Of a stretch of DNA of 53,955 nt, positions 35,608 to 49,339 are shown one piece after another; position 1 is the stretch's first letter; the number at the start of each line of letters is the position of its first letter. Source of the DNA: Terriglobia bacterium. Its GTDB lineage: Bacteria > Acidobacteriota > Terriglobia > Acidiferrales > UBA7541. The notes beneath the pieces are model-generated. The model saw only the letters and a list, made by a program, of their open reading frames with translations, did not search any database and was not told where the DNA came from. The stretch spans positions 1 to 53,955 of the forward strand of contig JAIQEV010000022.1 of assembly GCA_020073585.1 (NCBI GenBank). The letters are read 5' to 3'. Position numbers and translations under genes: made by a program.

Positions 35608-36432
35608 TCAAGCCTGGGGTTCCGGCTGGTGAGCGCCGCGATATCGAGGAGAACGATCGGGCCTCAGATGGTCCGCGCGAGCCTGCACCACGACGATGAG
35701 GCGCGAGGGGCAGTTGCGCGCGGGCCGCAGCGTGGCCGCGTCGTACACCCCGCGGATGACGAATCCCGCATCGAGGAGCCAGCGTCCGATTTCGCGGGGC
35801 GCATAGGCGCGCTCGCGATGAACTTCGACCGCCGGCGGGGAATGCGCGGCCCACCGCTCCACGATCAGGATGGAGAGCAGGCGCCTGGGCGGATCCCAGT
35901 GGATGCGCTGTTGAAGTTCCCGCCCGCAATGGCGATACCGGCGCACCCAGGTTCGGCGTCCCGCGAGCGGCTGGCAAGGCGTGACGAAGTCAAAAATGAA
36001 CCAGCCGCCCGGCCGGAGATTTTCCGCGACGCGGCAGAAGAGCCGGCGCACTTCGTCTCTGTGCACCAGGTGGTTCAACGTGTCGAAGTTAGCGGTGATG
36101 AGATCCACCGGCTGCGGCAAACGCAGACAACGGATGTCCTGTTCGAGGAACTGGACCGCGCTGCCGCAACAGTTTCCCCGGGCCACGCGCAGCATTTCGC
36201 GCGACCGGTCCACCGCAAAAACCGGCACGCGCCAGCAAGCGGCCAGGTAGCGGGCAAACAGGCCGGTGCCGCAACCCAGATCGGCGGCGGACCGAAAACG
36301 GATCGCGTACCGGCGGACGAGAAATCGAAAGGCGTGACGCGTGCGGAGAAAATTCGGAACGCCAAGCGCGGCGTCGTAGCTGCGCGCCAGACGACTGTAG
36401 GGCCGAAAAACCGGGAAAGTCTTCGACGTCAT
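35608..36432 (-). CDS. Class I SAM-dependent methyltransferase
   Basis: This 274-residue protein has a Rossmann-type fold. Motif I is AADLGCGTGLFARYLA at ~49-65, followed by VFAVDRSREML (motif II), QDIRCLRLPQPVDLITANFD (motif IV region), and LRPGGWFIFDFVT (motif V/VI). The substrate is unknown; the substrate half is short and Arg-rich. The ATG at 36432 is chosen because GAAGGA lies seven bases upstream. It lies 50 bases downstream of the phospholipase-like gene and may be the last gene of the 36.5-47.6 kb cluster or independent of it. Confidence 0.88.
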   Translation of the reverse strand: MTSKTFPVFRPYSRLARSYDAALGVPNFLRTRHAFRFLVRRYAIRFRSAADLGCGTGLFARYLAACWRVPVFAVDRSREMLRVARGNCCGSAVQFLEQDIRCLRLPQPVDLITANFDTLNHLVHRDEVRRLFCRVAENLRPGGWFIFDFVTPCQPLAGRRTWVRRYRHCGRELQQRIHWDPPRRLLSILIVERWAAHSPPAVEVHRERAYAPREIGRWLLDAGFVIRGVYDAATLRPARNCPSRLIVVVQARADHLRPDRSPRYRGAHQPEPQA

Positions 36433-36482: not shown

Positions 36483-37646
36483 CTAGGGCGCAGAACCACA
36501 GCGGACCGCGCTTCTTCCGCAGAGCCGGAGAATATCGCCGAGGAATCGCTCGAAGTCCGCGGCGGATTCCGAGCCGGCAGCGGGGTCGGCGTTGGCGCGG
36601 CCGACGATGGCTTTGAGGACAATTTGGAGGTAGCGGCGCGAAGAGTCCTCGGCTTTTCTGGCTGCGCCTTTGCTTTTCGCATAGGCGATCTTGTCCCGCT
36701 CGTCGGAGGGGACGCGGTGTTCCTTGTCGGAGCCGACCAGGGGCAGGCCGCCGCGGCCGAAATTGCGAATGTACTCGATGCACCAGGCGGAATCGGAGCG
36801 GCGCTGGGTATGCGCGGGGGAGTAGGAGTCCTGGACGAGATGCAGCGCCTGGCCGATTTTCCGCATGCGTTCGAGCGGGTTGGCCTCGGCCAGGATGCCG
36901 CGATGCTGCGCGCGCAGCGAGCCGACGATATCGCAGAGGGCATCGGCAATGTTCTGCCCATAATTGCGGCGCAAGGAGTGCCGCCTCTGCTCTTCCTCCT
37001 TGAAAGCGAATGCGGTGCCGGTGCCGTACCAGCCGAGGTCCACACTGCGATTGCCGGCAATGATCGCGCCGATCTCCGGAGCGGAGAGTTTGACGGAGAC
37101 AGGGCGTCCGCCCACGGGAAAGGAGATCGTCTTAGCCGGACCGATGGCGTTCATGGTGATCTGTTCGTGGCCCGCCGGAGTAACTTCCGGGCCGCTGGGG
37201 TACCCCGGCATGCGCACGGTCCAGCCGATATCGCCGAGGCGGGCGCTCCCGCGCGGCAGCGAGGCCAAAGAACCGTCCGCCAAGCGCTTCAAGTAGGCCA
37301 TCTCTTGCTCCTTCCTTGCGCGAGGCCCGCGATTGCCGCCCGACATTCCGGGGACGAAAACCGCGCGGGCCCCCGGAGCGGCTGCGCCGAAACCGAATGA
37401 AGAATCGTTCGCCGGGAGATTGCCCCAGCCGCCGGCCGTCTGCCCCCTCTCAGGCTCCTCGCCTGTCCGCACGGGCGCCGGGGGCGGCTTGCGCTCGGGT
37501 GCAGGCTCGGGTTCGCCGTCTTCGTCGGGAACATAGCGCTCGCCGAAGCCGGCGAGGCGCTGGCGGCAGGGAGCACAAGAGCATCCGGGTCCGCAGCCGA
37601 ACCGGCCAAGTCCATTCGATGGGCCGCTGATGCGAAGGTACGCCAC
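36483..37646 (-). CDS. Zinc-dependent phospholipase C/nuclease-like protein with Cys-rich leader
   Basis: This 387-residue protein resembles zinc phospholipase C/P1 nuclease folds: GHEQITMNAI (His160, Glu161), RHSLRRNYGQNIADALCD (His223) and GQALHLVQDSYSPAHTQR (His269, Asp273, His279). Residues 1-115 form a separate leader: GRFGCGPGCSCAPCRQRLAG with four Cys, then a Pro/Glu-rich linker. An internal ATG at 37301 (residue 116) has its own ribosome site (GGAAGGAGCAAGAG before it) and begins MAYL like the N-terminus. Two products from one gene are possible. The GTG start at 37646 has AGAGGAG upstream. No signal peptide is seen, so export is unlikely unless by lysis or packaging. Membrane or nucleic-acid cleavage is inferred. 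Confidence 0.7.
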   Translation of the reverse strand: MAYLRISGPSNGLGRFGCGPGCSCAPCRQRLAGFGERYVPDEDGEPEPAPERKPPPAPVRTGEEPERGQTAGGWGNLPANDSSFGFGAAAPGARAVFVPGMSGGNRGPRARKEQEMAYLKRLADGSLASLPRGSARLGDIGWTVRMPGYPSGPEVTPAGHEQITMNAIGPAKTISFPVGGRPVSVKLSAPEIGAIIAGNRSVDLGWYGTGTAFAFKEEEQRRHSLRRNYGQNIADALCDIVGSLRAQHRGILAEANPLERMRKIGQALHLVQDSYSPAHTQRRSDSAWCIEYIRNFGRGGLPLVGSDKEHRVPSDERDKIAYAKSKGAARKAEDSSRRYLQIVLKAIVGRANADPAAGSESAADFERFLGDILRLCGRSAVRCGSAP

Positions 37647-37684: not shown

Positions 37685-38173
37685 TCAGTAGTCCAGTTCG
37701 CCAGTGGACAGCCGCAGCACGATCACGGTCTTGAACTTCAGCGCCAGCGTGCGCCGAATGCTCTCGTAGATCCGCGCCTGGCCCGGGTCGGTCAGGCGGC
37801 AGCGGCCGAACCACCGCGCGGCGATGGCTCTGGCCGCAATCTTCATCGCGCTCTTGGCGATGTCCTTGAAGCTGCCGGGAATCTTCATGAAGAAGCGATT
37901 GTAGATGTCTTCGACGACGCCCATCGTGCAACTCGCATCAATGGCTTCCACCAGCAGGGCCTGCGCGAATTCGCGGTCCTTGTCGGTGAGGGCGCCCAGG
38001 CCGCTGAAATTAAGGTCCGGCCAGAAGAACCGATAGACCGCGAGCGTTTCTTCCGGTGAAAGCGTCAGCTCCGACGGCGCAAAATGCTTGAGACTTCCCG
38101 CCTCGCCCAGCGCGCCGGCGAGCGCAGGCGTGGCCGCCGGCCGTTGTGCGCCGTTCACTTCATACAGGTACAT
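37685..38173 (-). CDS. Unrecognised protein of the 36.5-47.6 kb cluster (162 aa)
   Basis: I do not recognise this protein. The 162 residues are probably largely alpha-helical (SLKHFAPSELTLSPEETLAV, then FAQALLVEAIDASCTMGVVE) with a basic stretch in the middle (AMKIAARAIAARWFGRCR). It has no signal peptide or membrane segment. The ATG start at 38173 follows GGGGGAAG. It lies between the coiled-coil gene (34 bases) and the phospholipase-like gene (38 bases), so it belongs to the same transcription unit. Confidence 0.7.
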   Translation of the reverse strand: MYLYEVNGAQRPAATPALAGALGEAGSLKHFAPSELTLSPEETLAVYRFFWPDLNFSGLGALTDKDREFAQALLVEAIDASCTMGVVEDIYNRFFMKIPGSFKDIAKSAMKIAARAIAARWFGRCRLTDPGQARIYESIRRTLALKFKTVIVLRLSTGELDY

Positions 38174-38207: not shown

Positions 38208-38675
38208 CTATTTTGCGGTTTTGCGGCCCGGCTTTTTCATCATGCCGACCAGCCGATTGCGCCACTTCTCCAGGCCTTCATATGCATGGCAGGCCACGCC
38301 GACCTGTTGCATTTGCACATCGAGCGCCTGGATGAGCTGGTTCCTCTTCGCTTGGTCCTTTTCGTAGGATTCGATCGTGTCTGCGAGCTGCTTGATCGCT
38401 GTGCTGAGACTGTTGTGTTGCTCATCGAAAGTCTGTTTCTTCTTGTCCAGGTCCTTGGCGCGGTTCACAAGGGACGGCAGGTTGAAGCTTTTGGCCACTT
38501 CCTTCGCCAGGTCAAAGGTCCATTGCTCCCTTGTTTTGTCGAACTCCGATTTGAGCTTCTTCCGCTCCTCCTCGAGCGTGCGCTGTGCGGCGATGACGTT
38601 TTGCAAGTCATCGAGCACGGGCGAGGGGGCTGATCCGGATATGGGGGTCACCTGCGGTGCCGGCTGGTTTGCCAT
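38208..38675 (-). CDS. Coiled-coil protein (155 aa)
   Basis: This 155-residue protein has long charged helices at ~20-125 (QRTLEEERKKLKSEFDKTRE; AKDLDKKKQTFDEQHNSL; QLADTIESYEKDQAKRNQLI), consistent with a coiled coil. The N-terminus is Pro/Ser-rich. No catalytic motif, signal peptide or membrane segment is seen. The start has a strong AAAGGAG site. A scaffold or tether role in the cluster's product is possible, but this is inference; the sequence alone shows only coiled coil. Confidence 0.75.
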   Translation of the reverse strand: MANQPAPQVTPISGSAPSPVLDDLQNVIAAQRTLEEERKKLKSEFDKTREQWTFDLAKEVAKSFNLPSLVNRAKDLDKKKQTFDEQHNSLSTAIKQLADTIESYEKDQAKRNQLIQALDVQMQQVGVACHAYEGLEKWRNRLVGMMKKPGRKTAK

Positions 38676-38738: not shown

Positions 38739-40142
38739 TCACACGCCTTTCCGCCGCCAGTAAATCTCCCATTCGAGCAGCATGGCCGCCGCATCGTAGC
38801 CAGCAGCATCCAGAGTGCGCCGCGCCCAGTCGCGCACGGCGGGACCGGAAAGACTTTCACGAGGCGGACGGACAGCCCAGAGCTGGTCGTCGGCGTCTTT
38901 GCCGCAGAGCAGCGCCTGCCATTTGTGGAACTCCTCCCGGCCATGGAGCCACCGGCGCATCCTGCGAACAAGCGAGGCGCGCAGACCGCGGGAAGCAGCC
39001 ATGTGAATGTCGTAGAGTGCTTCGTCGCGGCTGATTTGAAATTCCCAAGCCTTGAGGAAGCGGCTGGGGATCTCGCTCTTCGTAAAGCGGGCCGGGGGCG
39101 GCGCCAGCGGAGCGGCGGCAGCGGCCGGAGCCACCGGGGCAGGCTCCGCTTCCGCCTGCTCCTGCGCTTCCGCCTGGGCCTTGGGCGGGGTGGCAGAGGA
39201 TGCGGGGCGGGACTCGGCGGTGGGATCGGTTCCCAGGGTCAGGCGGAAAAACCGGTCGCCGGAAAGTACCAAGCCCGGCTCACGGTTCGCTTGCCGCAGC
39301 GGGCGCGGGCGGCGCAACAGAAAACCGGCAAGTCCCAGCATCGCGACGACCTCATCCTGGAGGGGCTGAATAGGCGCTGTGGACTTCGCTCCGGCCTGGA
39401 TCGCTTCGAAGAAAGAGTCAGCGCGCTGGTCGCGGGGGGACTCGAAGACCTGCACGTAGCACGGGAGGCGATGGACATCCCGGAGGCGCTCGCTGTGAGC
39501 GAGCTGCGGAGCCAGCATGGCCTTGAAGTCACCGAAGCGGACCAGGCGCGGAAGGCCAGGATCGGCAAAGATCCTGCGGCAAGCGGCGGCCGGCGGCAAG
39601 CCCTGCTCGGGCTTCACATCTGCGGCGCTCGCCGGATGCCCTTCTCTTTCATTCCGGTGCTGCTGCGGCTGATCCACGAACTCCGCATCGAAAACTTCTT
39701 CCGTGGAAGACGCGGGGGGCTGGGGCGCAGGGAGAAGCTCGAGGAACTCGCCGCGCGGGCCGCGGACGAGGCGCTCGAGCGGCCGCAGGCGCTGGCCCGC
39801 GGCTTCAAACAGGCGACCCGCGGCATCGCGGACGATCTCGCCGCGAACCGGCACGGCGATAAACTCGTCTCCACTCGGGGACATCACACGGGCATTGCCG
39901 GGCGGCAGGCTGTATGACGGCACTGCCCAACGATTCGGCGCGGGCGGGAGCGGTTCCGCATCGAGACCCGCGCCAGGCGGCATCGCCTCGTAGGCGTCCG
40001 CGGGCGCCGGAACGGGGGAGATGGCGCCGCGCATGGCGACGACAAAGACTCGCTTGCGGCCCAGCGAAGGAGTGATTTCGAAAGCGGCGATGCGGTCACA
40101 AAACGGATCGATGAACCCGGTACGCGTTACGCTGCGGTTCAT
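38739..40142 (-). CDS. Unrecognised multidomain protein of the cluster (467 aa)
   Basis: I do not recognise the family. The 467 residues divide into an N-terminal segment (~1-140, with RVMSPSGDEFIAVPVRGEIV and RGPRGEFLELLPAP), a middle of mixed composition (~180-300), an Ala/Pro/Glu linker (~325-355) and a C-terminal helical block (~360-467, WEFQISRDEALYDIHMAASR; ending LEWEIYWRRKGV). No signal peptide is present. The start carries AGGAGG six bases upstream and lies 24 bases after the peptidase gene. A structural or adaptor role is only a guess. Confidence 0.7.
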   Translation of the reverse strand: MNRSVTRTGFIDPFCDRIAAFEITPSLGRKRVFVVAMRGAISPVPAPADAYEAMPPGAGLDAEPLPPAPNRWAVPSYSLPPGNARVMSPSGDEFIAVPVRGEIVRDAAGRLFEAAGQRLRPLERLVRGPRGEFLELLPAPQPPASSTEEVFDAEFVDQPQQHRNEREGHPASAADVKPEQGLPPAAACRRIFADPGLPRLVRFGDFKAMLAPQLAHSERLRDVHRLPCYVQVFESPRDQRADSFFEAIQAGAKSTAPIQPLQDEVVAMLGLAGFLLRRPRPLRQANREPGLVLSGDRFFRLTLGTDPTAESRPASSATPPKAQAEAQEQAEAEPAPVAPAAAAAPLAPPPARFTKSEIPSRFLKAWEFQISRDEALYDIHMAASRGLRASLVRRMRRWLHGREEFHKWQALLCGKDADDQLWAVRPPRESLSGPAVRDWARRTLDAAGYDAAAMLLEWEIYWRRKGV

Positions 40143-40166: not shown

Positions 40167-40688
40167 TCACTTGGCCACATGAATGTGGTCGCGATGGGCG
40201 TCCAGCAAACCATCGCTGATGAATTTCCAGGGACCCTCGCGGCGAGTCCACGGGCCGAACAACTGAATCGGGTAACCGTAGGGTTGAGCCCAGCGGCCGT
40301 AGAGCTGCAGCGCTTTGTAGAGACGCCAGCCGAGATTGGCCATGCCTTCGTGCCGGGCACGGGAGCGGCAGGCGGCCGGATGCGGCGCCTTGCCGAGAGC
40401 AGCGTCCCAGCGGCGTTTCCATTCCTCGATGCCGATTCCACCCACAGCATAAATATCCGCCGCGCGACCCAACTGATGATGGCCCACCACGCCGGGCCGG
40501 AAGAAAATCCCGACGGGGTCTCCATCGCCGAATCCCGCTTCCCGCGCGAAGCGCTGCAGCACGCGGGCCAGTTCGCCGGCGAGTTCCCGCGTGACCAAAG
40601 AGTTCGCGTCCGGCGAGGCCACACGGTAGGCACGCCCCGACGGCACCGGCCGCAAACCGCGCCGAAGTTCAGGAGCGCCGCACCACAT
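40167..40688 (-). CDS. M15-type zinc peptidase (endolysin-like)
   Basis: This 173-residue protein has the M15 metal motif H-x6-D at His71-Asp78 (HHQLGRAADIY) and the C-terminal H-x-H at 168-170 (HRDHIHVAK). The fold matches L-alanyl-D-glutamate/D-Ala-D-Ala peptidases used as phage endolysins (family knowledge). No signal peptide is seen, so cell-wall contact would need a holin, lysis or particle delivery. Start choice: ATG at 40688, overlapping the upstream stop by 20 bases; a TTG at 40724 is less likely. It supports a lysis or wall-penetration role for the cluster. Confidence 0.78.
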   Translation of the reverse strand: MWCGAPELRRGLRPVPSGRAYRVASPDANSLVTRELAGELARVLQRFAREAGFGDGDPVGIFFRPGVVGHHQLGRAADIYAVGGIGIEEWKRRWDAALGKAPHPAACRSRARHEGMANLGWRLYKALQLYGRWAQPYGYPIQLFGPWTRREGPWKFISDGLLDAHRDHIHVAK

Positions 40689-41190
40689 CGCCGAAGGCCG
40701 CGTTGTACCAATACCTCCCCACAATTCGCCCGCCGACGCGAACCGGCGCGGGCGTCGCGTCGGCCGCTACTTCCGGGTCGTCCATGCGGGGCGTGACGCC
40801 GCGCACCACGAATTCAACCGTGGCACTGTCCTCCAATCGCGCGGAAACTGGAAAGCTGCCGAAGCCCCAGGGGTTCACGATCCGATTGAGCTGCATGTAC
40901 GGGTACAGCGGGCGCTTATTCGCCAGGATCGCCCACTCCAGCGAAGGGGTCCGGACACGCGTGTTGTCCCGGGCCCAGGCATCGGTGAATTGAGAAAAGT
41001 ATTCCAGCACGCCGCAATATTGCGGCGGGAGCTCGAACCGGGCCAGCACCAGGACATGGCCGGCCGCCGGAGGGGGCTGCACGGACGACTCGTCGAAATA
41101 CTTGGCGTCCAGCGGAATGCCGCACTGCGCGCACAGATTCGCGTTCAGCTCCGGCGCCGTGCCAGCCGCGATCGAGCCGCTGCGGTTCAT
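40669..41190 (-). CDS. Beta-rich protein of the cluster (173 aa)
   Basis: The 173 residues have no catalytic motif. An N-terminal Cys pair (LCAQCG at ~20) precedes alternating beta segments (VLVLARFELPPQY; PLYPYMQLNRIVNPW; FGSFPVSARLEDSATVEFVV; VGGRIVGRYWYN). The pattern resembles the C-terminal ends of the neighbouring beta-domain proteins, but similarity is weak. The ATG overlaps the upstream stop (ATGA). I infer a structural role; I do not recognise a family. Confidence 0.7.
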   Translation of the reverse strand: MNRSGSIAAGTAPELNANLCAQCGIPLDAKYFDESSVQPPPAAGHVLVLARFELPPQYCGVLEYFSQFTDAWARDNTRVRTPSLEWAILANKRPLYPYMQLNRIVNPWGFGSFPVSARLEDSATVEFVVRGVTPRMDDPEVAADATPAPVRVGGRIVGRYWYNAAFGDVVRRS

Positions 41191-42245
41191 CGAGTCCGGA
41201 ACCTCCCTACCCGCCGCGGCGGACGCAACCGGCGTCCGGTCGGCGTGCCTTCGCCGCCCAACATCTTGTAGCCGTGCAGCACCACGTACAGCTCGCCCTT
41301 GAACTCGGTCTTCGGAATGATGTTCAGCCGGACCGTGGTGCGGGGGGAAAACGTGATCGGCACCGCAAAATAACGGAAGGGGCGCTCGCCGCCGCTCGAA
41401 CCCAGCCCCGAAGTGTTCAGCAAAAAATCCGACTGGAACTCGCGGCCTGTACCTTCATCGCGCAGCGCATAAAGAAATTGCACGCGCTCCGGCGGGGGCT
41501 CGGTCGTTTCAAACAGCTTGCCGAGCCAGTCCGGCTCGAGGGGATCGCGCCCATCGGAAAGAAAAATGGCCGGCGCCAGCGCCGGGTTCAGGCGAATACC
41601 ATTCGCGAGGGCCTGCGCCGCCTTGGGTCCGAGTTGTCCGCGAAGGGCGAACTCGCCCTCGCCGAGCGCGCGGCTTAGGGAGCTGAACACGTCGCCCAGT
41701 TGCAATTGCCGGGGCGGCATGGGCGGCACAAGCTCGCGCCGCAGAATTGGAGGCGCCTCTTTGAGGAACCGGCGGAGGTCGTCCGGTGTCGCCCCTTCGA
41801 GGAAATCCGTTTTCGGCGTCGAACGGTCGGCGAGGAAATTGCGGTACGTTTGGAGAATTTCCTGAGACTTCGTGGTCATGCTACTTGGCACCACAGGAGT
41901 TGGCGTGAAGGCCACGGGTGGCAGCGTCCCAGGCCCTCCCGCGGGTGGAGGGCCGGCGAAATCCTCGACTTGGCTGGGGCCAAAAAAGATTCTGCGCTGG
42001 CGCGGCAGCAGGCCATAGCCGATGGATACGGCGGTGAACGACGCCTCGATGCTGACGGTAACCGTCGCGCTCAGTAACCGGTTCACAAGGCTCTTCTCTG
42101 CTTTTTTGTTCTTCTCTCTTTCTCCTGCTTTTTCTTCTTCTTCGTCGAAGAGCTTGAAATAGAAGGAGTAGTCAAAAGGGATGGTTCGCCGCGAAAAGGG
42201 AGAAGCCGCGGGTGTGCGTGCTTCTGCAAATGCCGCGAGGCTCAT
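41187..42245 (-). CDS. Cluster beta-domain protein, single copy of shared domain
   Basis: This 352-residue protein carries once the domain that is duplicated in the next gene: RTIPFDYSFYFKLF, then ASFTAVSIGYGLL, GIRLNPALAPAIF, FLYALRDEGTGREFQ, GERPFRYFAVPITFSPRTTV and GELYVVLHGYKML. An insertion rich in Pro, Gln and Arg (~100-230) separates the first and last parts. It ends in a basic tail (RRLRPPRRVGRFRTR). The ATG at 42245 overlaps the upstream TGA. No signal peptide is seen. A capsid-like structural protein is my inference from the strand pattern, not a demonstrated match. Confidence 0.75.
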   Translation of the reverse strand: MSLAAFAEARTPAASPFSRRTIPFDYSFYFKLFDEEEEKAGEREKNKKAEKSLVNRLLSATVTVSIEASFTAVSIGYGLLPRQRRIFFGPSQVEDFAGPPPAGGPGTLPPVAFTPTPVVPSSMTTKSQEILQTYRNFLADRSTPKTDFLEGATPDDLRRFLKEAPPILRRELVPPMPPRQLQLGDVFSSLSRALGEGEFALRGQLGPKAAQALANGIRLNPALAPAIFLSDGRDPLEPDWLGKLFETTEPPPERVQFLYALRDEGTGREFQSDFLLNTSGLGSSGGERPFRYFAVPITFSPRTTVRLNIIPKTEFKGELYVVLHGYKMLGGEGTPTGRRLRPPRRVGRFRTR

Positions 42246-43621
42246 GACGCCCCTCCGCACTCCGCCTGGAGCACTTTGTAACCCTGGAACGCCAGGTACA
42301 GCCAGCCGCGCCCGAAGTGTTCATTCACGGTCACGCGCAACGTCGAGCGCGGCCGGAAAACCATGGGGCGCGCCAGTCTCTTGAAGGGGCGCAGCCCGTT
42401 CGCTATGCCCAGACCGGCCACGTTGTTCAGCGGCATATTCTGCCAGCCCTGGCCGGTACCGCTGTCGTAGATGGTGTAGCGAAAGGAAACGTCTTCCGAT
42501 TGGTTCACGCGCTCGAAGATCGCGTCGGCCAACTCGGGTGATAAGTCCTGGGAAAGCTGGCCGCCAGCTTGCAGGGCAATGCGCATGTATTCTTTCCGTA
42601 TGCGAATGCCGTCCAGCAGCGCCAGCGGCGGAAAATTCCGCAGTGGAAGCTGAGCCAGGTTGACCACATTATTTCCTTGTGTTGGCGCCAGCTTCACCCC
42701 TTCCTCTTCCACCGCAAGCCCGTAGCCCAGAGCGGTGGCAACGAAGGCTCCCTCGGTGCTGATAGTGATTTCGTCCTCTTGAGACGTTCCTGGCCGGCCT
42801 TTCAGCTCGCATTTGGCTACGTAATCGAAGGGAATCACTGGCGCCCCTGGTTGCTGGGGCCAGCCGCGGCGAACCGCAGCCTCCTCCAGCGCTTGCGCCG
42901 CTGGTTCGGGACAGGCGGCGCCGGTCCAGATCTTGTAGCCGTAAAGCACGATGAACAGCTCTCCGGTAACGCCGGAGGTGCGTTCTTCCACTTGCACCCG
43001 GATCGTCGAACGCGGCAAAAACGAAAGCGGCTGCGCCAGCGGACGAAAAGGCCGCCTTCCCGAGGGCTCCCCGATGCCGGACCAGGACAGAACCGGTTCG
43101 TCCTGCATTTCCCGGCCGCTGCCGCTGTCCACCAGGCTGTAAAGGAACGAAATTTCGGCGGGCCGGCACACCCGCTGGAAAAGGTGATTGATGAGATCCC
43201 GCGAGATCTTCTGACTGTTGAAATTGCTTTCGCCGTGGCCGGAATCTTCGGAGAGTTGGAACATGAGGTTTTCGAAGCCCGGATCGACGCGGAATCCCTC
43301 GATGAGCGCCATGCGCGGCAGATCGCCAAGCGTCAAGTCACCCGGCGCTATAGGCGCGCCCGAGACTTGATCGCTCTTGAAGATTTCCAGCGGGAGAACA
43401 CGATGCTGCTCGAATCCGTAGCCGATCGCGACGGCAACGAAGACGCTGTCCGGGCTGATGGCGATCACATCCTGGACGATGTTGCCGGGCTGCCCCGTGA
43501 TCTTGAATTTCGCCGCATAGTCGTAGGGGATCAGGGTTCCGCCGGAGGCTGGGCTACGCGCAATGCCTCCGGCGGGACCCGTGGCCGCTCTGCGGCGCTC
43601 TCTGATGTGGCTCGCGAGCAT
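42242..43621 (-). CDS. Cluster beta-domain protein with internal duplication
   Basis: This 459-residue protein has two tandem copies of one domain. Copy one spans ~30-225 and copy two ~255-455. Shared landmarks are IPYDY/IPFDY, SVFVAVAIGYG/AFVATALGYG, GFRVDPG/GIRIRKE, FLYSLVDSGSG/FRYTIYDSGTG, RRPFRPLAQPLSFLPRSTIR against LRPFKRLARPMVFRPRSTLR, and ELFIVLYGYK against WLYLAFQGYK. Two linked copies suggest gene duplication and a beta-sandwich assembly unit. No catalytic residues or export signal are seen. The stop overlaps the next gene by four bases. Confidence 0.78.
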   Translation of the reverse strand: MLASHIRERRRAATGPAGGIARSPASGGTLIPYDYAAKFKITGQPGNIVQDVIAISPDSVFVAVAIGYGFEQHRVLPLEIFKSDQVSGAPIAPGDLTLGDLPRMALIEGFRVDPGFENLMFQLSEDSGHGESNFNSQKISRDLINHLFQRVCRPAEISFLYSLVDSGSGREMQDEPVLSWSGIGEPSGRRPFRPLAQPLSFLPRSTIRVQVEERTSGVTGELFIVLYGYKIWTGAACPEPAAQALEEAAVRRGWPQQPGAPVIPFDYVAKCELKGRPGTSQEDEITISTEGAFVATALGYGLAVEEEGVKLAPTQGNNVVNLAQLPLRNFPPLALLDGIRIRKEYMRIALQAGGQLSQDLSPELADAIFERVNQSEDVSFRYTIYDSGTGQGWQNMPLNNVAGLGIANGLRPFKRLARPMVFRPRSTLRVTVNEHFGRGWLYLAFQGYKVLQAECGGAS

Positions 43622-44599: not shown

Positions 44600-45355
44600 T
44601 CACCAGATGGGCCGGAACGTATCCGGCACCGCGGTCGTACCGTCCGGCGGCGGGGAGAATTGCTCGCACGTCGGGCTGACGTTCCGCGGCTTGACGTAAC
44701 CCTCGAACGGATATTCTCCGAAGCCGGCCACATTCGTGGGCATGGGACAACTGGGATTGAACGTGGGCGGCGTGTCGCGGACATAGCCGGCGAATTCGGG
44801 CTCGGCGTAATAGCCGTAGGGGTCCGCCTGGCCCCAGCCGACCAACTCCGGCGATTGCGCGTAACCGTAGCCGGCCACCGGATACTCCTCGGCGTAGTAG
44901 CCGACGGGTTCATACTCGGCGAATTCAGGTTCCGCGTAGGAGCCGTACGGATCAACCTCACCGCAGGCGCCCATGTCGGGCGGCTCGGCGTAATAGCCAT
45001 AGGGATCCGTTTCCGCGAACTGGCCGTAGGGATCGGCTTCGGAATATCCCGCGACCGGCTCGTACTTGGCGAACTCGGGTTTCGCGTAGGAGCCGTACGG
45101 GCCGGCCGCACCCCAACCGGCCATGCCGGGCGGCTGGGTGTAGTAGCCATACGGAGCAGGTGCGGCGTATCCGCCAACGGGCTCGAACTCGGCGAATTCC
45201 TGCTCGCCCCATTCGCCCACTGGCTCGTATTCAGCGAATTCGGGGGATTCCGCATAGTGGAATTGCATTGACGTTTCTCCTTGGGCATCGCCCATGGCGG
45301 CCGGGTCGCAAGGGTTGACGATCATGACCTCATCGAACCCGGAATTACGTTTCAT
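44600..45355 (-). CDS. Tyr/Glu/Pro-rich repeat protein of the cluster (251 aa)
   Basis: The 251 residues consist largely of repeated units such as EFAEYEPVG, DPYGYYAEP, DPYGSYAEP and AEEYPVAGYG. Composition is strongly acidic and aromatic, with few Lys or Arg. The C-terminal ~60 residues are non-repetitive (RDTPPTFNPSCPMPTNVAG). No signal peptide or membrane segment is present. The repeats may build a fibre, a spike or an assembly scaffold; this is inference. The ATG at 45355 has GGAAGGA upstream. Confidence 0.72.
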   Translation of the reverse strand: MKRNSGFDEVMIVNPCDPAAMGDAQGETSMQFHYAESPEFAEYEPVGEWGEQEFAEFEPVGGYAAPAPYGYYTQPPGMAGWGAAGPYGSYAKPEFAKYEPVAGYSEADPYGQFAETDPYGYYAEPPDMGACGEVDPYGSYAEPEFAEYEPVGYYAEEYPVAGYGYAQSPELVGWGQADPYGYYAEPEFAGYVRDTPPTFNPSCPMPTNVAGFGEYPFEGYVKPRNVSPTCEQFSPPPDGTTAVPDTFRPIW

Positions 45356-45403: not shown

Positions 45404-45745
45404 CTAGCCGACGATGCCTTTCCGCGTCACCCGATAGTCGCCGCCGACCACAAAGAGCTGCTTGCCCAACGGATCGCAGGCCAGCATCGGAGGCGTCTCC
45501 ATGAAGTGTATGAACGTCCGCGGTCTGCCGCACTGCCCGCGGTCGGAGGAGTAAATCAACGCGCGCAGGTCGCCGAGCCGAACCAGCACGCGCGGAATGA
45601 CGCGTGAGCACGGACGCCGCAGGAACTCCTGCGCGGGAAAAGAATGGAAGCGGCGGAAGAGCGAGCGCGCGCTCGAGAGACAGCCGCAAGACCGGGCACA
45701 GCTTGAGCGGCCCTCGCAGCCTGGCGATCCGAGCAGATAACTCAC
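45404..45745 (-). CDS. Small Cys-containing protein of the cluster (113 aa)
   Basis: I do not recognise this protein. The N-terminus has Cys-rich segments (GSPGCEGRSSCARSCGC) and Arg-rich helices, and the C-terminus is beta-like (LRALIYSSDRGQCGRPRTFI, PLGKQLFVVGGDYRVTRKGI). I chose the GTG at 45745 because CGGGAG lies nine bases upstream; the frame is open up to a GTG at 45790. A 222-codon frame covering the same bases in another register is rejected. Confidence is moderate. Confidence 0.55.
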   Translation of the reverse strand: MSYLLGSPGCEGRSSCARSCGCLSSARSLFRRFHSFPAQEFLRRPCSRVIPRVLVRLGDLRALIYSSDRGQCGRPRTFIHFMETPPMLACDPLGKQLFVVGGDYRVTRKGIVG

Positions 45746-45796
45746 TGGCGCAACTCCCGAGCATGGCGCGAATCTCCTGCCTCTTCTCACGCGGAC

Positions 45797-46267
45797 TTAA
45801 CGACGACGCCGGAAGCGCATGTGGCGCCGGCGCATTCCCCCTCCGGGCATCCCCGGAGCGCCCGGGCCTCCCGGGGCGCCGGGCATGCCGGGAGCACCCG
45901 GCCATTGTCCGGGGGCCACAGGGACGAGCCCCGCCGGCCCGGGCCACACGGAGCAGCGCATGTAGAGACGCCGGGGATGCGGGCCGGTATACGGCAGTGC
46001 GGGCGTGGTCCAACCCACGGGCGGGGCACAGCGCCGAATGGGTACGAACTGGCGAAAGAGTTGCGGCGCAGCCGAAGCAATGGCCGCGCTGGGGCTGGGA
46101 AATCCCGGCGGAACCGGCGGCGCACCGCCCCGGCCCCCGAACAGTCCTTTTATAGCGTTGAAAATTCCCGGGAACAGCCCCACGGGATTGCCGAAGCCGT
46201 CGTACGCGACTTGGCCGTAGCTGTCCGGCACTTCGTGAACGTAGCCGAGATTATCTTGCACGAGCAT
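45797..46267 (-). CDS. MLVQD-type protein B with Gly/Pro-rich basic tail (156 aa)
   Basis: The N-terminus MLVQDNLGYVHEVPDSYGQV and YDGFGNPVGLFP is shared with the next gene. The middle is Gly/Pro-rich and the C-terminus is a basic tail (MRRRHMRFRRRR). Two Pro/Gly stretches (GAPGMPGAPGGPGAPGMPGG) suggest flexible or filamentous structure. A strong AAAGGAGG site precedes the ATG at 46267, which lies inside the 3' end of gene A (17-base overlap). No enzymatic motif is seen; a nucleic-acid- or anion-binding tail is possible (inference). Confidence 0.7.
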   Translation of the reverse strand: MLVQDNLGYVHEVPDSYGQVAYDGFGNPVGLFPGIFNAIKGLFGGRGGAPPVPPGFPSPSAAIASAAPQLFRQFVPIRRCAPPVGWTTPALPYTGPHPRRLYMRCSVWPGPAGLVPVAPGQWPGAPGMPGAPGGPGAPGMPGGGMRRRHMRFRRRR

Positions 46268-46847
46268 GACGTCGCCTCCTTTGGATCATCGGGAACTGCA
46301 TGCCTGGCCAACCGTAGGGAGGCGCTGGCATGCCCGGTCGAAATCCCGGCCAGGGAGCCGGGCCGAACTGCGGGGGGAAAAACGGAAAACCCGGTGGCAT
46401 CGGTGCATAGGGAGCGGGCGGGAACGGCGGAGCAGCGGGATAACTGGGCCCTGGCATCCACGCGGCTGCGGGTGGCGCAAACGCCGGAGGAGGAGGAGCC
46501 ACAACCGGCGCTGGTGCGGGGGCTGGCGCTCCACCGCCGGTGATAGCGGAAACAGCCGGTCCGAGAATCTGCCCTACCGCAGGAAGGGCCTTGCTGACCA
46601 AGCCGCCGATGACGGGAAGCGCACTGCTGATCGCCCCACCGATGGCCGGCAAAGCGCTGCTGATCGCCGGCAGCAACGCCGCGAGTGCGGGAAACAATCC
46701 GAGCGGATTGCCGAGCCCGTCGTATACCATTTCACCGACGGGATTGCCGAGACCATCATAGACAGTTTCGCCGTAACCCGAGCAGCCCGCGTAATCTGCG
46801 GCCGGCACTTCGTGTACGTAACCGCTCAACATGTCTTGGACGAGCAT
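46251..46847 (-). CDS. MLVQD-type protein A with hydrophobic and Pro-rich segments (198 aa)
   Basis: It is a paralogue of the next gene. It starts MLVQDMLSGYVHEVPAAD and carries two YDGLGNP copies (TVYDGLGNPVG and MVYDGLGNPLG). An amphipathic or membrane-active hydrophobic stretch follows (~50-105, rich in Ala, Leu, Pro and Ile), then a Pro-rich segment with PAPAPAPV-type repeats and a basic tail (IQRRRRHARAR). No signal peptide is visible. The hydrophobic part could insert into membranes, but that is inference. It overlaps the upstream gene by 22 bases and the downstream one by 17. Confidence 0.7.
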   Translation of the reverse strand: MLVQDMLSGYVHEVPAADYAGCSGYGETVYDGLGNPVGEMVYDGLGNPLGLFPALAALLPAISSALPAIGGAISSALPVIGGLVSKALPAVGQILGPAVSAITGGGAPAPAPAPVVAPPPPAFAPPAAAWMPGPSYPAAPPFPPAPYAPMPPGFPFFPPQFGPAPWPGFRPGMPAPPYGWPGMQFPMIQRRRRHARAR

Positions 46848-47389: not shown

Positions 47390-47611
47390 TCACAGCGCAC
47401 CCAAAACCCGCTTGACCGGAACAATCACGGGTTGATCGATGCCCTCCACCTCGACGACCAGGAAAGCGCCCGGCTGCATACCGCTGTCGCTCGTCTCGAC
47501 GACCCGGCCCTGGAGCAGATCGCAGCCGTGCAGGGCGTCCAACAAGTTATGCGGCTCGGGAAGGTACACATCGCGAATCTGGAAATGGACCCAACGATTT
47601 TTCAAGTCCAC
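47390..47611 (-). CDS. Small unrecognised beta-rich protein at head of the cluster (73 aa)
   Basis: The 73 residues (LPEPHNLLDALHGCDLLQGR, FLVVEVEGIDQPVIVPVKRV) look like a small beta-barrel. The start is a GTG at 47611 without a clear ribosome site, so the true start is uncertain. It is the first gene of the minus-strand cluster after a 243-bp spacer from the activator. I do not recognise it. Confidence 0.55.
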   Translation of the reverse strand: MDLKNRWVHFQIRDVYLPEPHNLLDALHGCDLLQGRVVETSDSGMQPGAFLVVEVEGIDQPVIVPVKRVLGAL

Positions 47612-47854: not shown

Positions 47855-49339
47855 TCAGCCGTGCAAGGACCGGCGCCGAAGCTTGTTGTACACGCTGCGC
47901 GGGGTGATGCCGAGCAGACGAGCGGTCTGAGACTGATTGCCGCGGGTGCGGTGCAAAGCGGCTTCGAGAAGCAGTTGCTCGCAGTGCGCGAGCGACCTCG
48001 GGAGATTCCAGTGGTGCTCTTCGAGCAGGCGGAGGAAATCGGCGGGCACCATGGATTCCAGGGGCGCCGGCGGGAACTCGCGAGCGATTGGCGGCTCGGG
48101 GCGCGGCGCCTCTCCCGCAGAGAGTTCCTTCCAGAGCTCGGCGGGCAGGTCGGCGAGACTCAGAGGCGCGTCGTCTTCCTTATGAGCAATGGCATGGCGG
48201 AGGAGATTTTCAAGCTGGCGAGCATTGCCGGGCAGGCCGGTGGCCTTGAGCGCTTCCACAAAATCGGCGCCGGGCACAATCGTACGCGCGGGATTGAGTG
48301 AGCGGTGCTTGGCGAGGAAATGGACGATGAGCGCGTCGACGTCTTCGAGGTGTTCGCGCAAGGGCGGCACATGAATGGCGACCACGTTCAGACGATGGAA
48401 GAGATCGGCGCGAAACAGCCCGCGCCCGACCCGGTCGCGAAGGTCCTGGTTGGAGGCGGCCAGCACGCGCGCGTTGATGGCCACCTCGCGGTCTTCGCCG
48501 ACGGCCAGTACGCGGCTTTCTTGCAGGGCGCGGAGCAGCTTGGCCTGGAGATCGAGGTCCAGCTCGGCAATCTCGTCGAGAAAGAGGACGCCGCCGTCGG
48601 CCGCGCGGAACAGGCCCTTGCGGTCGTGATCGGCGCCGGTGAAAGCGCCGCGGCGGTGGCCGAACAATTCTGTTTCCGCGAGCGTGGGAGTGAGTGCGGC
48701 GCAATTCAATGCAACGAATGGCCCGCTGGAGCGCTTGGGATCGAGCCGGTGAATGGCCCGCGCCAGGAGTTCCTTGCCGGTGCCGGTTTCTCCAGTGAAA
48801 AGAACCGTGACGTCGCTCAAGCTGCTGACGCGCAGAACGAGGCGGAAGACAGCAGCCATTACCGGGCTTGCGCCGATGACTCCCTGGCGTTCCAGTGACT
48901 CCCGGATGTGCTCTTTCTCGGCGCGACGCTGAACTCCGGACTGGAGAGCAGCCAGAACGCGGCGGCGCAGGTCCGTGGGAAACTCCGCGCTGGAACTATC
49001 CAATAGAAGTTGTGCACCGTCGAGCAGCGCGCGGCAACGCGCGCCCAGCGGCCATGTGCCGGCGCTATCTTCGTAGCCGAGGACAAAATGCTGGCGCCCG
49101 CGAAAGCAGCGGATTACTTCGCCGGATAGAACCTGTGCGGGGGCCGATTGGCCGAGGGCCACCAGGGCCACTCCGGGCGGTGCGCTCGCGGCGGCTTCCG
49201 CGGCTAGTTCGAGCGAATCGAGGTGCCGAATGACGGCGCCGGTTCCAGCCAGGACCCGGCGGATTTGCGCGATTCTCGCTGGGGCGCGATCCCAAAGAAA
49301 CAGCGGGGCGCCCAAGCCATCTGAGCTGGAGGAAAGCAT
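47855..49339 (-). CDS. Sigma-54-dependent activator with non-phosphorylatable receiver-like domain
   Basis: This 494-residue protein has an N-terminal ~130-residue receiver-like region that lacks an Asp at the phosphoacceptor position (VALVALGQSAP). An AAA+ domain follows (Walker [15 protein letters not shown] intact, LFLDEIAELD) and a Fis-type helix-turn-helix at the C-terminus (GNQSQTARLLGITPRSVYNK). It would activate sigma-54 promoters without phosphorylation, perhaps by an unknown ligand or partner. It lies directly upstream of, and in the same orientation as, the cluster, so control of that cluster is a reasonable inference. Its GTG/ATG start at 49339 is preceded by no strong ribosome site. 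Confidence 0.92.
   Translation of the reverse strand: MLSSSSDGLGAPLFLWDRAPARIAQIRRVLAGTGAVIRHLDSLELAAEAAASAPPGVALVALGQSAPAQVLSGEVIRCFRGRQHFVLGYEDSAGTWPLGARCRALLDGAQLLLDSSSAEFPTDLRRRVLAALQSGVQRRAEKEHIRESLERQGVIGASPVMAAVFRLVLRVSSLSDVTVLFTGETGTGKELLARAIHRLDPKRSSGPFVALNCAALTPTLAETELFGHRRGAFTGADHDRKGLFRAADGGVLFLDEIAELDLDLQAKLLRALQESRVLAVGEDREVAINARVLAASNQDLRDRVGRGLFRADLFHRLNVVAIHVPPLREHLEDVDALIVHFLAKHRSLNPARTIVPGADFVEALKATGLPGNARQLENLLRHAIAHKEDDAPLSLADLPAELWKELSAGEAPRPEPPIAREFPPAPLESMVPADFLRLLEEHHWNLPRSLAHCEQLLLEAALHRTRGNQSQTARLLGITPRSVYNKLRRRSLHG

Follow-up and report, generated by a model that had tools for sequence, protein, structure and literature searches.

What does a bacterial chromosome build, or bind, with a domain that matches no annotated family and occurs three times in two neighbouring genes? 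The locus that raises this question lies on contig JAIQEV010000022.1 of a Terriglobia bacterium (phylum Acidobacteriota; assembly GCA_020073585.1), and the window is the whole stretch of 53,955 nucleotides that was analysed. The domain is carried by two proteins, here called P1 and P2:

P1, 41187..42245, minus strand: single jelly-roll-like copy of the domain with long inserts, 352 amino acids
P2, 42242..43621, minus strand: the domain twice in tandem; a weak model looks like a double jelly roll

The actual unit is not these two genes; it is a chromosomal cassette of about fifteen genes on the minus strand, at ~35.6-49.3 kb of the window. The answer that we favour, tentatively and with somewhat less than even confidence, is that this cassette encodes a cellular, capsid-like jelly-roll assembly. 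The assembly, the roles of the enzymes, the regulation and the function are what we infer; the reading is supported by duplication, age, gene order and purifying selection, which were observed, and by the fold of P2, which comes from a weak model.

A sequence-only reading of this stretch had placed one copy of a ~200-residue domain in the 41187-42245 protein and two in the 42242-43621 protein, with the landmarks IP[FY]DY, GYG, D.G[ST]G, RPF and GYK in each, and this was upheld. The three minus-strand copies (P2a at ~43534-42923, P2b at 42838-42266 and P1 at 42185-41256) were aligned and are homologous. Smith-Waterman scores of 296 (P2a/P2b), 217 (P2a/P1) and 167 (P2b/P1) stand far above the best of 200 shuffles per pair (47-50), and profile-profile comparison gave E-values of 3e-50, 1e-40 and 2.4e-38 in the same order, against 0.028-0.28 for the reversed controls of these pairs. 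Identity among the copies of the window is 32-35%, and the P1 copy is longer (310 amino acids versus 204 for P2a and 191 for P2b) because of its inserts. All five landmarks are present in 3/3 copies of the window; among 13 copies from five loci, IP[FY]DY occurs in 9, GYG in 12, D.G[ST]G in 9, RPF in 13 and GYK in 11. The gene pair of P2 and P1 and the pair of P1 and the next gene, at 40669, each overlap by ATGA, and these overlapping genes look as if they were co-translated. The 40669 protein was tried as a further relative of the domain and rejected, giving no signal against P2a, P2b, P1 or the joint profile (hhalign E 0.48-0.93).

The earlier reading had also held that the last strands of the domain recur in the gene upstream of P2:

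P3, 43666..44532, minus strand: strongly conserved protein, possibly a third, divergent jelly roll (putative)

This part was not established. By eye, P3 resembles the last strands; its three pairwise scores with the copies (53, 33 and 44) were equalled by 1, 70 and 13 of 200 shuffles. The P3 profile matched the joint domain profile with an E-value of 0.0045 (probability 7.7%, over 37 C-terminal columns), P1 with 0.0031 (probability 10%), P2a with 0.1 and P2b with 0.3; the reversed controls of P3 itself gave 0.053-0.8, and the lowest E-value of any reversed control in the run was 0.0067. With pairwise tests that give no support and weak profile matches, P3 was rejected as a clear fourth copy of the domain. 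Sequence families are of little help with any of the three proteins: P1-P3 have no Pfam match above the curated cut-off, no NCBIfam match and no PHROG family, the profiles of P2 and P3 have no match among PDB sequences, and the only Pfam listing at E<=1 is DUF6037 for P2 (E 0.17; the filters of HMMER drop most matches above 0.1).

The cassette is spread at low frequency over three phyla (four named genomes). P3 was found in six genomes: that of the window, two Acidobacteria, a member of the Calditrichaceae, a gammaproteobacterium and one more. The gene order is the same in these six as far as the contigs reach, and P3 of the window is 61-64% identical to that of the five other loci. Four of the genomes were reached through the motif YDG[LF]GNP[LV]G, taken from two neighbouring proteins of a type called MLVQD here and scanned over the contigs of GTDB genomes, which returned 19 stretches; 14 were judged unrelated and five (L011, L015, L017, L023 and L027) hold an MLVQD-type protein. 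P3 is present in 4/5 of these genomes and was not found in that of L027, where the activator, small-protein, transglutaminase and MLVQD genes of the cassette are followed by the contig end. A further P3 genome, G597, came from 257 genomes of the order of G451 (2/257, one being the centre genome itself), and its short contig carries, in order, the 113-residue protein, the Tyr-rich protein, P3, P2 and P1.

Elsewhere the searches returned little beyond their starting points. A P2 search of 61 kin genomes and a search of 396 genomes of the phylum with the P2 domain profile each found the window alone (1/61 and 1/396), and other P3 searches gave 1/40, 1/2 and 1/398, each sole match being the centre genome itself. 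P3 was absent from two further genome sets (0/6 and 0/377), neither of which had a positive control. In the genus, the transglutaminase was matched in 3/36 genomes, namely the window and two weak matches (E 7.8e-6 and 5.6e-4) inside frames of more than 1100 residues. P3 of the window is equally close to that of the Gammaproteobacteria record (64%), Bryobacteraceae (62%) and Acidobacteria (64%). Since identity does not track taxonomy and the distribution is patchy, these sequences suggest that the cassette probably moves horizontally.

Both duplications are older than this spread. In a FastTree phylogeny of 13 domains from five loci (unrooted, and with L048 left out), the P2b copies group with a support of 0.995 and the P1 copies with 0.999, and the branch separating these two groups from the P2a copies has 0.955. 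Because the P2b and the P1 copies group across loci, the duplications are placed before the spread of the cassette. The idea, in the sequence-only reading, of assembly subunits that evolved by duplication thus stands as to duplication, through the homologous copies and the supported paralogue groups; assembly is plausible, by way of the weak P2 model and of the gene overlaps. The ratio of non-synonymous to synonymous substitution (dN/dS) between L037 and L048 is ~0.12 for P3, ~0.20 for P2 and ~0.18 for P1, rough values given that synonymous sites differ at 57-67% and are near saturation; such low values indicate that P1-P3 are under purifying selection. In the window, L037, L038, L039 and L048, all three of these genes have open frames (P1 in L048 to the contig end).

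Open frames and constraint bear on whether the cassette might be a provirus, decayed or defective, from an undescribed jelly-roll virus without a packaging ATPase; we regard this as very unlikely. The Walker A pattern [AG]x4GK[ST] occurs in 0/16 cassette proteins, and no ATPase family was recognised in the scanned cassette proteins except the sigma-54 activator, which carries the Walker A variant GETGTGKE. The packaging ATPase of double-jelly-roll viruses (Varidnaviria, Bamfordvirae) is of the FtsK/HerA type; a few groups that lack it are described, as are some viruses with an M15 family peptidase (PMC5894146 and PMC8812541, in the parts available), and therefore the absence of an ATPase alone cannot exclude a viral origin. 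Viral company was sought more widely. No PHROG family was found at E <0.001 in ten cassette proteins, and the scanned window proteins, a set that leaves out several flank genes, include no recognisable integrase or phage replication gene. P2 and P3 have no credible relative in 50,697 phage records, where the one match (P2 in Pseudomonas phage CRPAP1904, E 0.02) is on the strand opposite to an annotated gene and was taken as chance; the 72,556 plasmid records likewise contain none. IMG/VR was scanned four times by pattern, once with the M15-like protein, and yielded no credible relative, with the limit that scans starting from exact peptides may miss distant relatives; a contig with the YDGLGNP motif (L010) resembles, by eye, an ordinary tailed phage. 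The GC content of the cassette in the window (0.640) does not differ from that of its flanks (0.632). What speaks for a provirus, besides the ATPase-less viruses, is the capsid-like fold matches of P2 and an interrupted cassette copy, both given below.

P2 likely has a jelly-roll fold. Its model, from five alignment rows (from the window, L017 and L023), shows a similar strand pattern in both domains, and in a Foldseek search of the PDB 15/15 chains at E<=0.001 belong to double-jelly-roll capsid viruses or the poxvirus scaffold D13. These chains come from 11 entries and six kinds of virus (PRD1, PR772, STIV, PBCV-1, Sputnik and poxvirus scaffold D13), and where the entry title is silent we take them to be capsid proteins. 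Ranks 1-26 are all viral chains, the first unrelated chain being at rank 27. In BFVD the top match is the major capsid protein of tectivirus GC1 (E 1.9e-6, probability 0.99), and below it stand other capsid proteins, unnamed proteins and some non-capsid ones. VIA-align gave Z scores of 8.5 to D13 (114 residues, 3.3 A), 8.4 to the Orf virus scaffold (121 residues, 3.6 A), 8.3 to SPV1 (116 residues, 3.8 A), 7.4 to P23-77 VP17 and 7.2 to HCIV-1 and SH1; in this tool differences of less than 1 count as ties, and models that lack a clear match typically reach a best Z of 7-8. On this model, kinship of P2 to viral capsid proteins is possible.

Several results weigh against a capsid-like assembly. 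The P2 model has a mean predicted local distance difference test score (pLDDT) of 55.7 and a predicted template modelling score of 0.44, with 145/459 residues below 50 (the other four models reached 39-47), and its whole-chain template modelling (TM) scores to the 15 matches are 0.10-0.25 at root-mean-square deviations of 16-24 A. Non-capsid proteins, a tail fibre for one, are among the BFVD matches at E<=0.001. With VIA-align, PHM (7.9), HA3 (7.5) and an exo-arabinofuranosidase (7.4) score nearly at the level of the capsid proteins, and given these near-equal values for two cellular jelly-roll enzymes and the HA3 chain, and the warning of the tool itself, the fold gives no function. The similarity of P3 to the domain is only suggestive, so that P3 enters as unproven kin, and its model (three alignment rows, pLDDT 47.6) is unusable, with no Foldseek hit at E<=0.001. 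The best match of that model, at rank 1, is an SH1 capsid chain with a non-significant E-value of 0.13, and a second comparison gave Z <=6.7, a value that a virus scaffold shares with an unrelated protein. In the window, a search upstream of the cassette, whose first gene encodes a sigma-54 activator, turned up no sigma-54 site. Lastly, the gammaproteobacterial cassette (L040) is interrupted: in that locus only, a DDE transposase (L040:2037-3623, minus strand; DDE_Tnp_1, E 2.9e-7) lies between the transglutaminase and the 113-residue gene.

The P2 gene of the same locus has a peculiarity of its own. At L040:6796-8629 the second domain breaks off after FSPRS and the frame continues into a protein of the type starting MYLY, which is 52% identical over 80 residues to the M35-like L039:6100-7026. 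The break may be either a real deletion or an assembly join.

The scores of PHM, HA3 and the arabinofuranosidase would also suit a reading in which the domains form no shell and serve, as carbohydrate-binding or enzymatic modules, in a cell-envelope complex that is at the surface or secreted and acts on polysaccharide or peptidoglycan. Cellular double-jelly-roll enzymes are reported (PMC8812541, in the part available), the cassette includes an M15-like protein, and L038 has a VanY protein and a peptidoglycan-binding domain. Conversely, DUF2961 is not listed for P1, P2 or P3 at E<=1 in Pfam, to which the want of an above-cut-off Pfam match or NCBIfam match can be added; the most hydrophobic stretches of the three proteins are not N-terminal (a crude test for an export signal), and viral chains fill the head of the Foldseek list for P2. 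We find an envelope role rather unlikely and return to the capsid-like assembly, for which the remaining genes of the cassette suggest how it might work. In order of transcription these are:

47855..49339, minus strand: sigma-54-dependent transcription activator
47390..47611, minus strand: small protein, matched in L015/L038 and L027
46826..47389, minus strand: transglutaminase-like protein (Transglut_core, E 4.3e-13)
46251..46847, minus strand: MLVQD-type protein; YDGLGNP motif twice, and a hydrophobic stretch rich in Ala and Pro
45797..46267, minus strand: MLVQD-type protein with YDGFGNPVG
45404..45790, minus strand: conserved protein of ~113-128 residues, matched in five other loci
44600..45355, minus strand: Tyr/Gly/Pro-rich repeat protein with conserved ends
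(P3, P2 and P1 follow here)
40669..41190, minus strand: conserved 173-amino-acid protein with a CxxC pair; identity to three other loci 54-58%
40167..40724, minus strand: peptidase-like protein with an M15-like pattern, invariant HHQxGRAADIY and HRDHIH
38739..40142, minus strand: conserved 467-amino-acid protein with no family assigned, present in three other loci
38208..38675, minus strand: coiled-coil-like protein
37685..38173, minus strand: putative cargo, starting MYLY
36483..37646, minus strand: putative cargo enzyme with a GTG start reading (M)AYL, and GCGPGC.C.PC
35608..36432, minus strand: S-adenosylmethionine (SAM) methyltransferase, 57% (L039) and 41% (L037) identical to the same-place ones

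The two-domain subunit P2, its one-domain paralogue P1 and the perhaps related P3 would be the central components, assembling in the cytoplasm into a capsid-like lattice or shell in the manner of double- and single-jelly-roll capsid proteins, and the assembly may carry the downstream enzymes. The 46826 protein can be assigned to the transglutaminase-like superfamily by its Transglut_core match and its conserved triad motifs: GDCDD, HIY and D, which we take to be the Cys-His-Asp catalytic residues, are present in 6/6 aligned sequences that are 65-72% identical to that of the window. It would process or cross-link the assembly, with the neighbouring MLVQD and Tyr-rich proteins as likely substrates, and the MLVQD proteins, one of them with a hydrophobic stretch, may act on membranes. 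The 40167 protein, in which HHQxGRAAD and HRDHIH are invariant in 3/3 aligned sequences, has no Pfam, NCBIfam or PDB-sequence match and may be M15-like, SxHxxGxAxD and HxH-type zinc ligands being the pattern that we associate with M15; it would cut peptidoglycan or the cell wall. The 38208 protein can be aligned with the same-place protein of L037, with no BLAST match at E 0.01; its AAA_13 match is below the cut-off and of the coiled-coil type, and a tape-measure match (E 0.0028) also fits a coiled coil.

Expression would be switched on by the activator through a sigma-54 promoter. The activator is 48% identical in L037 and L027, and 38% in L039 over the AAA and DNA-binding part only. At L027:2419 there is a sigma-54-like site, CCGGCACGGTCATTGCT, which agrees at 13/14 positions and lies ~60-76 bases upstream of the small gene; in the other loci inspected, nothing of similar quality precedes the cassette. 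The contig of L038 starts within the small gene. PADLOC, run on ten proteins, recognised nothing except the activator, which matches the RtcR/PspF2 models over residues 117-489, that is, the AAA and DNA-binding part. In the position of the small gene, L039 has a DUF3467 protein (L039:17084-17365, E 5.3e-13), unlike the small protein that stands there in the window, L027 and L038.

The genes downstream vary between loci, and it may be asked whether their products are delivered. L039 encodes three M35-like metallopeptidases (E 6.4e-10, 1.7e-5 and 3.1e-5, the first alone above the cut-off) and a PLD-like protein, and L038 encodes VanY (E 5.7e-23) and a peptidoglycan-binding protein (E 1.5e-15); in the window, 36483-37646 has a sub-threshold similarity to Zn_dep_PLPC (E 0.34 and 0.17). 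Many of the downstream proteins start with MAY, MPY, MYLY or MYIY, the exceptions including the L039 PLD-like protein and the L038 VanY frame. In the long frames of five stretches (the window, L037, L038, L039 and L041, the last being more of the L039 contig), M[AP]Y or MY[IL]Y stands at 12/893 ATGs; 8/12 are in downstream putative cargo genes and 4/12 elsewhere. These figures are qualified by the motif having caught the eye ahead of the count, and by the large share of the 893 ATGs that belong to frames which are not genes. Six of the eight are at a frame start, one (37301) is an internal start and one (L038:1974) is out of frame with VanY. The 36483-37646 frame has, besides its GTG start, an internal ATG that reads MAYL and follows a ribosome-site-like sequence, which would suit a fusion of two cargo genes or two such genes sharing one frame. 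A shared GCGPG cargo tag was considered and rejected as a general signal, as only two of the six genomes, the window's and G453, contain it, each once.

On these starts one could build a delivery system for toxins or enzymes, in which the downstream cargo is loaded in or onto the jelly-roll assembly by the M[AP]Y/MY[IL]Y signal and released by lysis; we think this unlikely, if not strongly so. The share of motif starts in downstream genes and the metallopeptidases, VanY and peptidoglycan-binding protein among the putative cargo would agree with it. Toxin signals of extracellular contractile injection systems (eCIS) combine a hydrophilic character with aromatic residues among the first eight positions, and the toxin Pdp1 has two such residues there; in the available text of the same source no conserved signal sequence was found for eCIS (PMC11297309), and therefore the likeness is a loose analogy. 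The motif is short, two cargo proteins are without it in frame, an interaction of cargo and shell is putative, and no secretion or tail genes were recognised: tail tube, sheath and baseplate families gave no Pfam or PHROG match among ten proteins of this island. M35 is not mentioned in the available part of a paper on polymorphic toxins (PMC3482391). A still more specific version, a non-viral bacterial jelly-roll particle with variable lytic or toxic enzymes that are marked by this N-terminal signal, we consider distinctly unlikely.

Among the matches listed in a search of the open literature, no description of this cassette was recognisable by title or opening abstract. Its novelty is judged to lie in composition, with jelly-roll-like paralogues, a transglutaminase-like protein, an M15-like protein and variable enzymes in one conserved chromosomal cassette. 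Even without a particle, a core of family-less proteins (P1-P3) in a cassette of ~fifteen genes that recurs across phyla is a functional problem in its own right.

Encapsulins and eCIS are virus-derived assemblies with adjacent cargo genes and cargo signals, and are compared here by analogy only. A jelly-roll particle with such an enzyme load would be the jelly-roll counterpart to encapsulins or phage-tail-derived injection systems. It differs from both in that no encapsulin- or tail-type protein was recognised among the cassette genes scanned; no encapsulin family appeared in Pfam or NCBIfam at the limits used, and the fold matches of P2 are jelly rolls, other folds not being formally excluded. 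To our knowledge, the HK97 capsid and phage tails are the sources of all virus-derived protein machines of bacteria known so far. If the capsid homology is true, the cassette would be a jelly-roll member of a broader class of virus-related cellular assemblies, and such machines would have a new source in the other large capsid fold.

Like the double-jelly-roll capsid proteins (PRD1/PR772/GC1, STIV, D13), which are its best structural matches, P2 would carry a tandem pair of beta-sandwiches in one chain; trimers of those proteins are pseudo-hexagonal capsomers (PMC8812541, in the part available). Unlike them, the cassette has no detectable sequence similarity, recognised packaging ATPase or viral genes, and the TM-scores are low and the model weak. 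With the single-jelly-roll capsids (P23-77 VP16/VP17, SH1, HCIV-1, HHIV-2) the cassette may share paralogous jelly-roll subunits, of which each such virus has two (PMC8812541), whereas P2 has two fused domains and there is no virus genome. As with the cellular double-jelly-roll proteins described in the same part of that source (DUF2961, PNGase F, PHM), the genes are cellular and the fold is likely of the same kind; the cassette is set apart by the lack of a DUF2961 Pfam match and by paralogues that lie together among structural-looking genes. Should the capsid homology hold, the cassette would also inform the relationship between double-jelly-roll capsids and cellular proteins, which PMC8812541 raises as a question.

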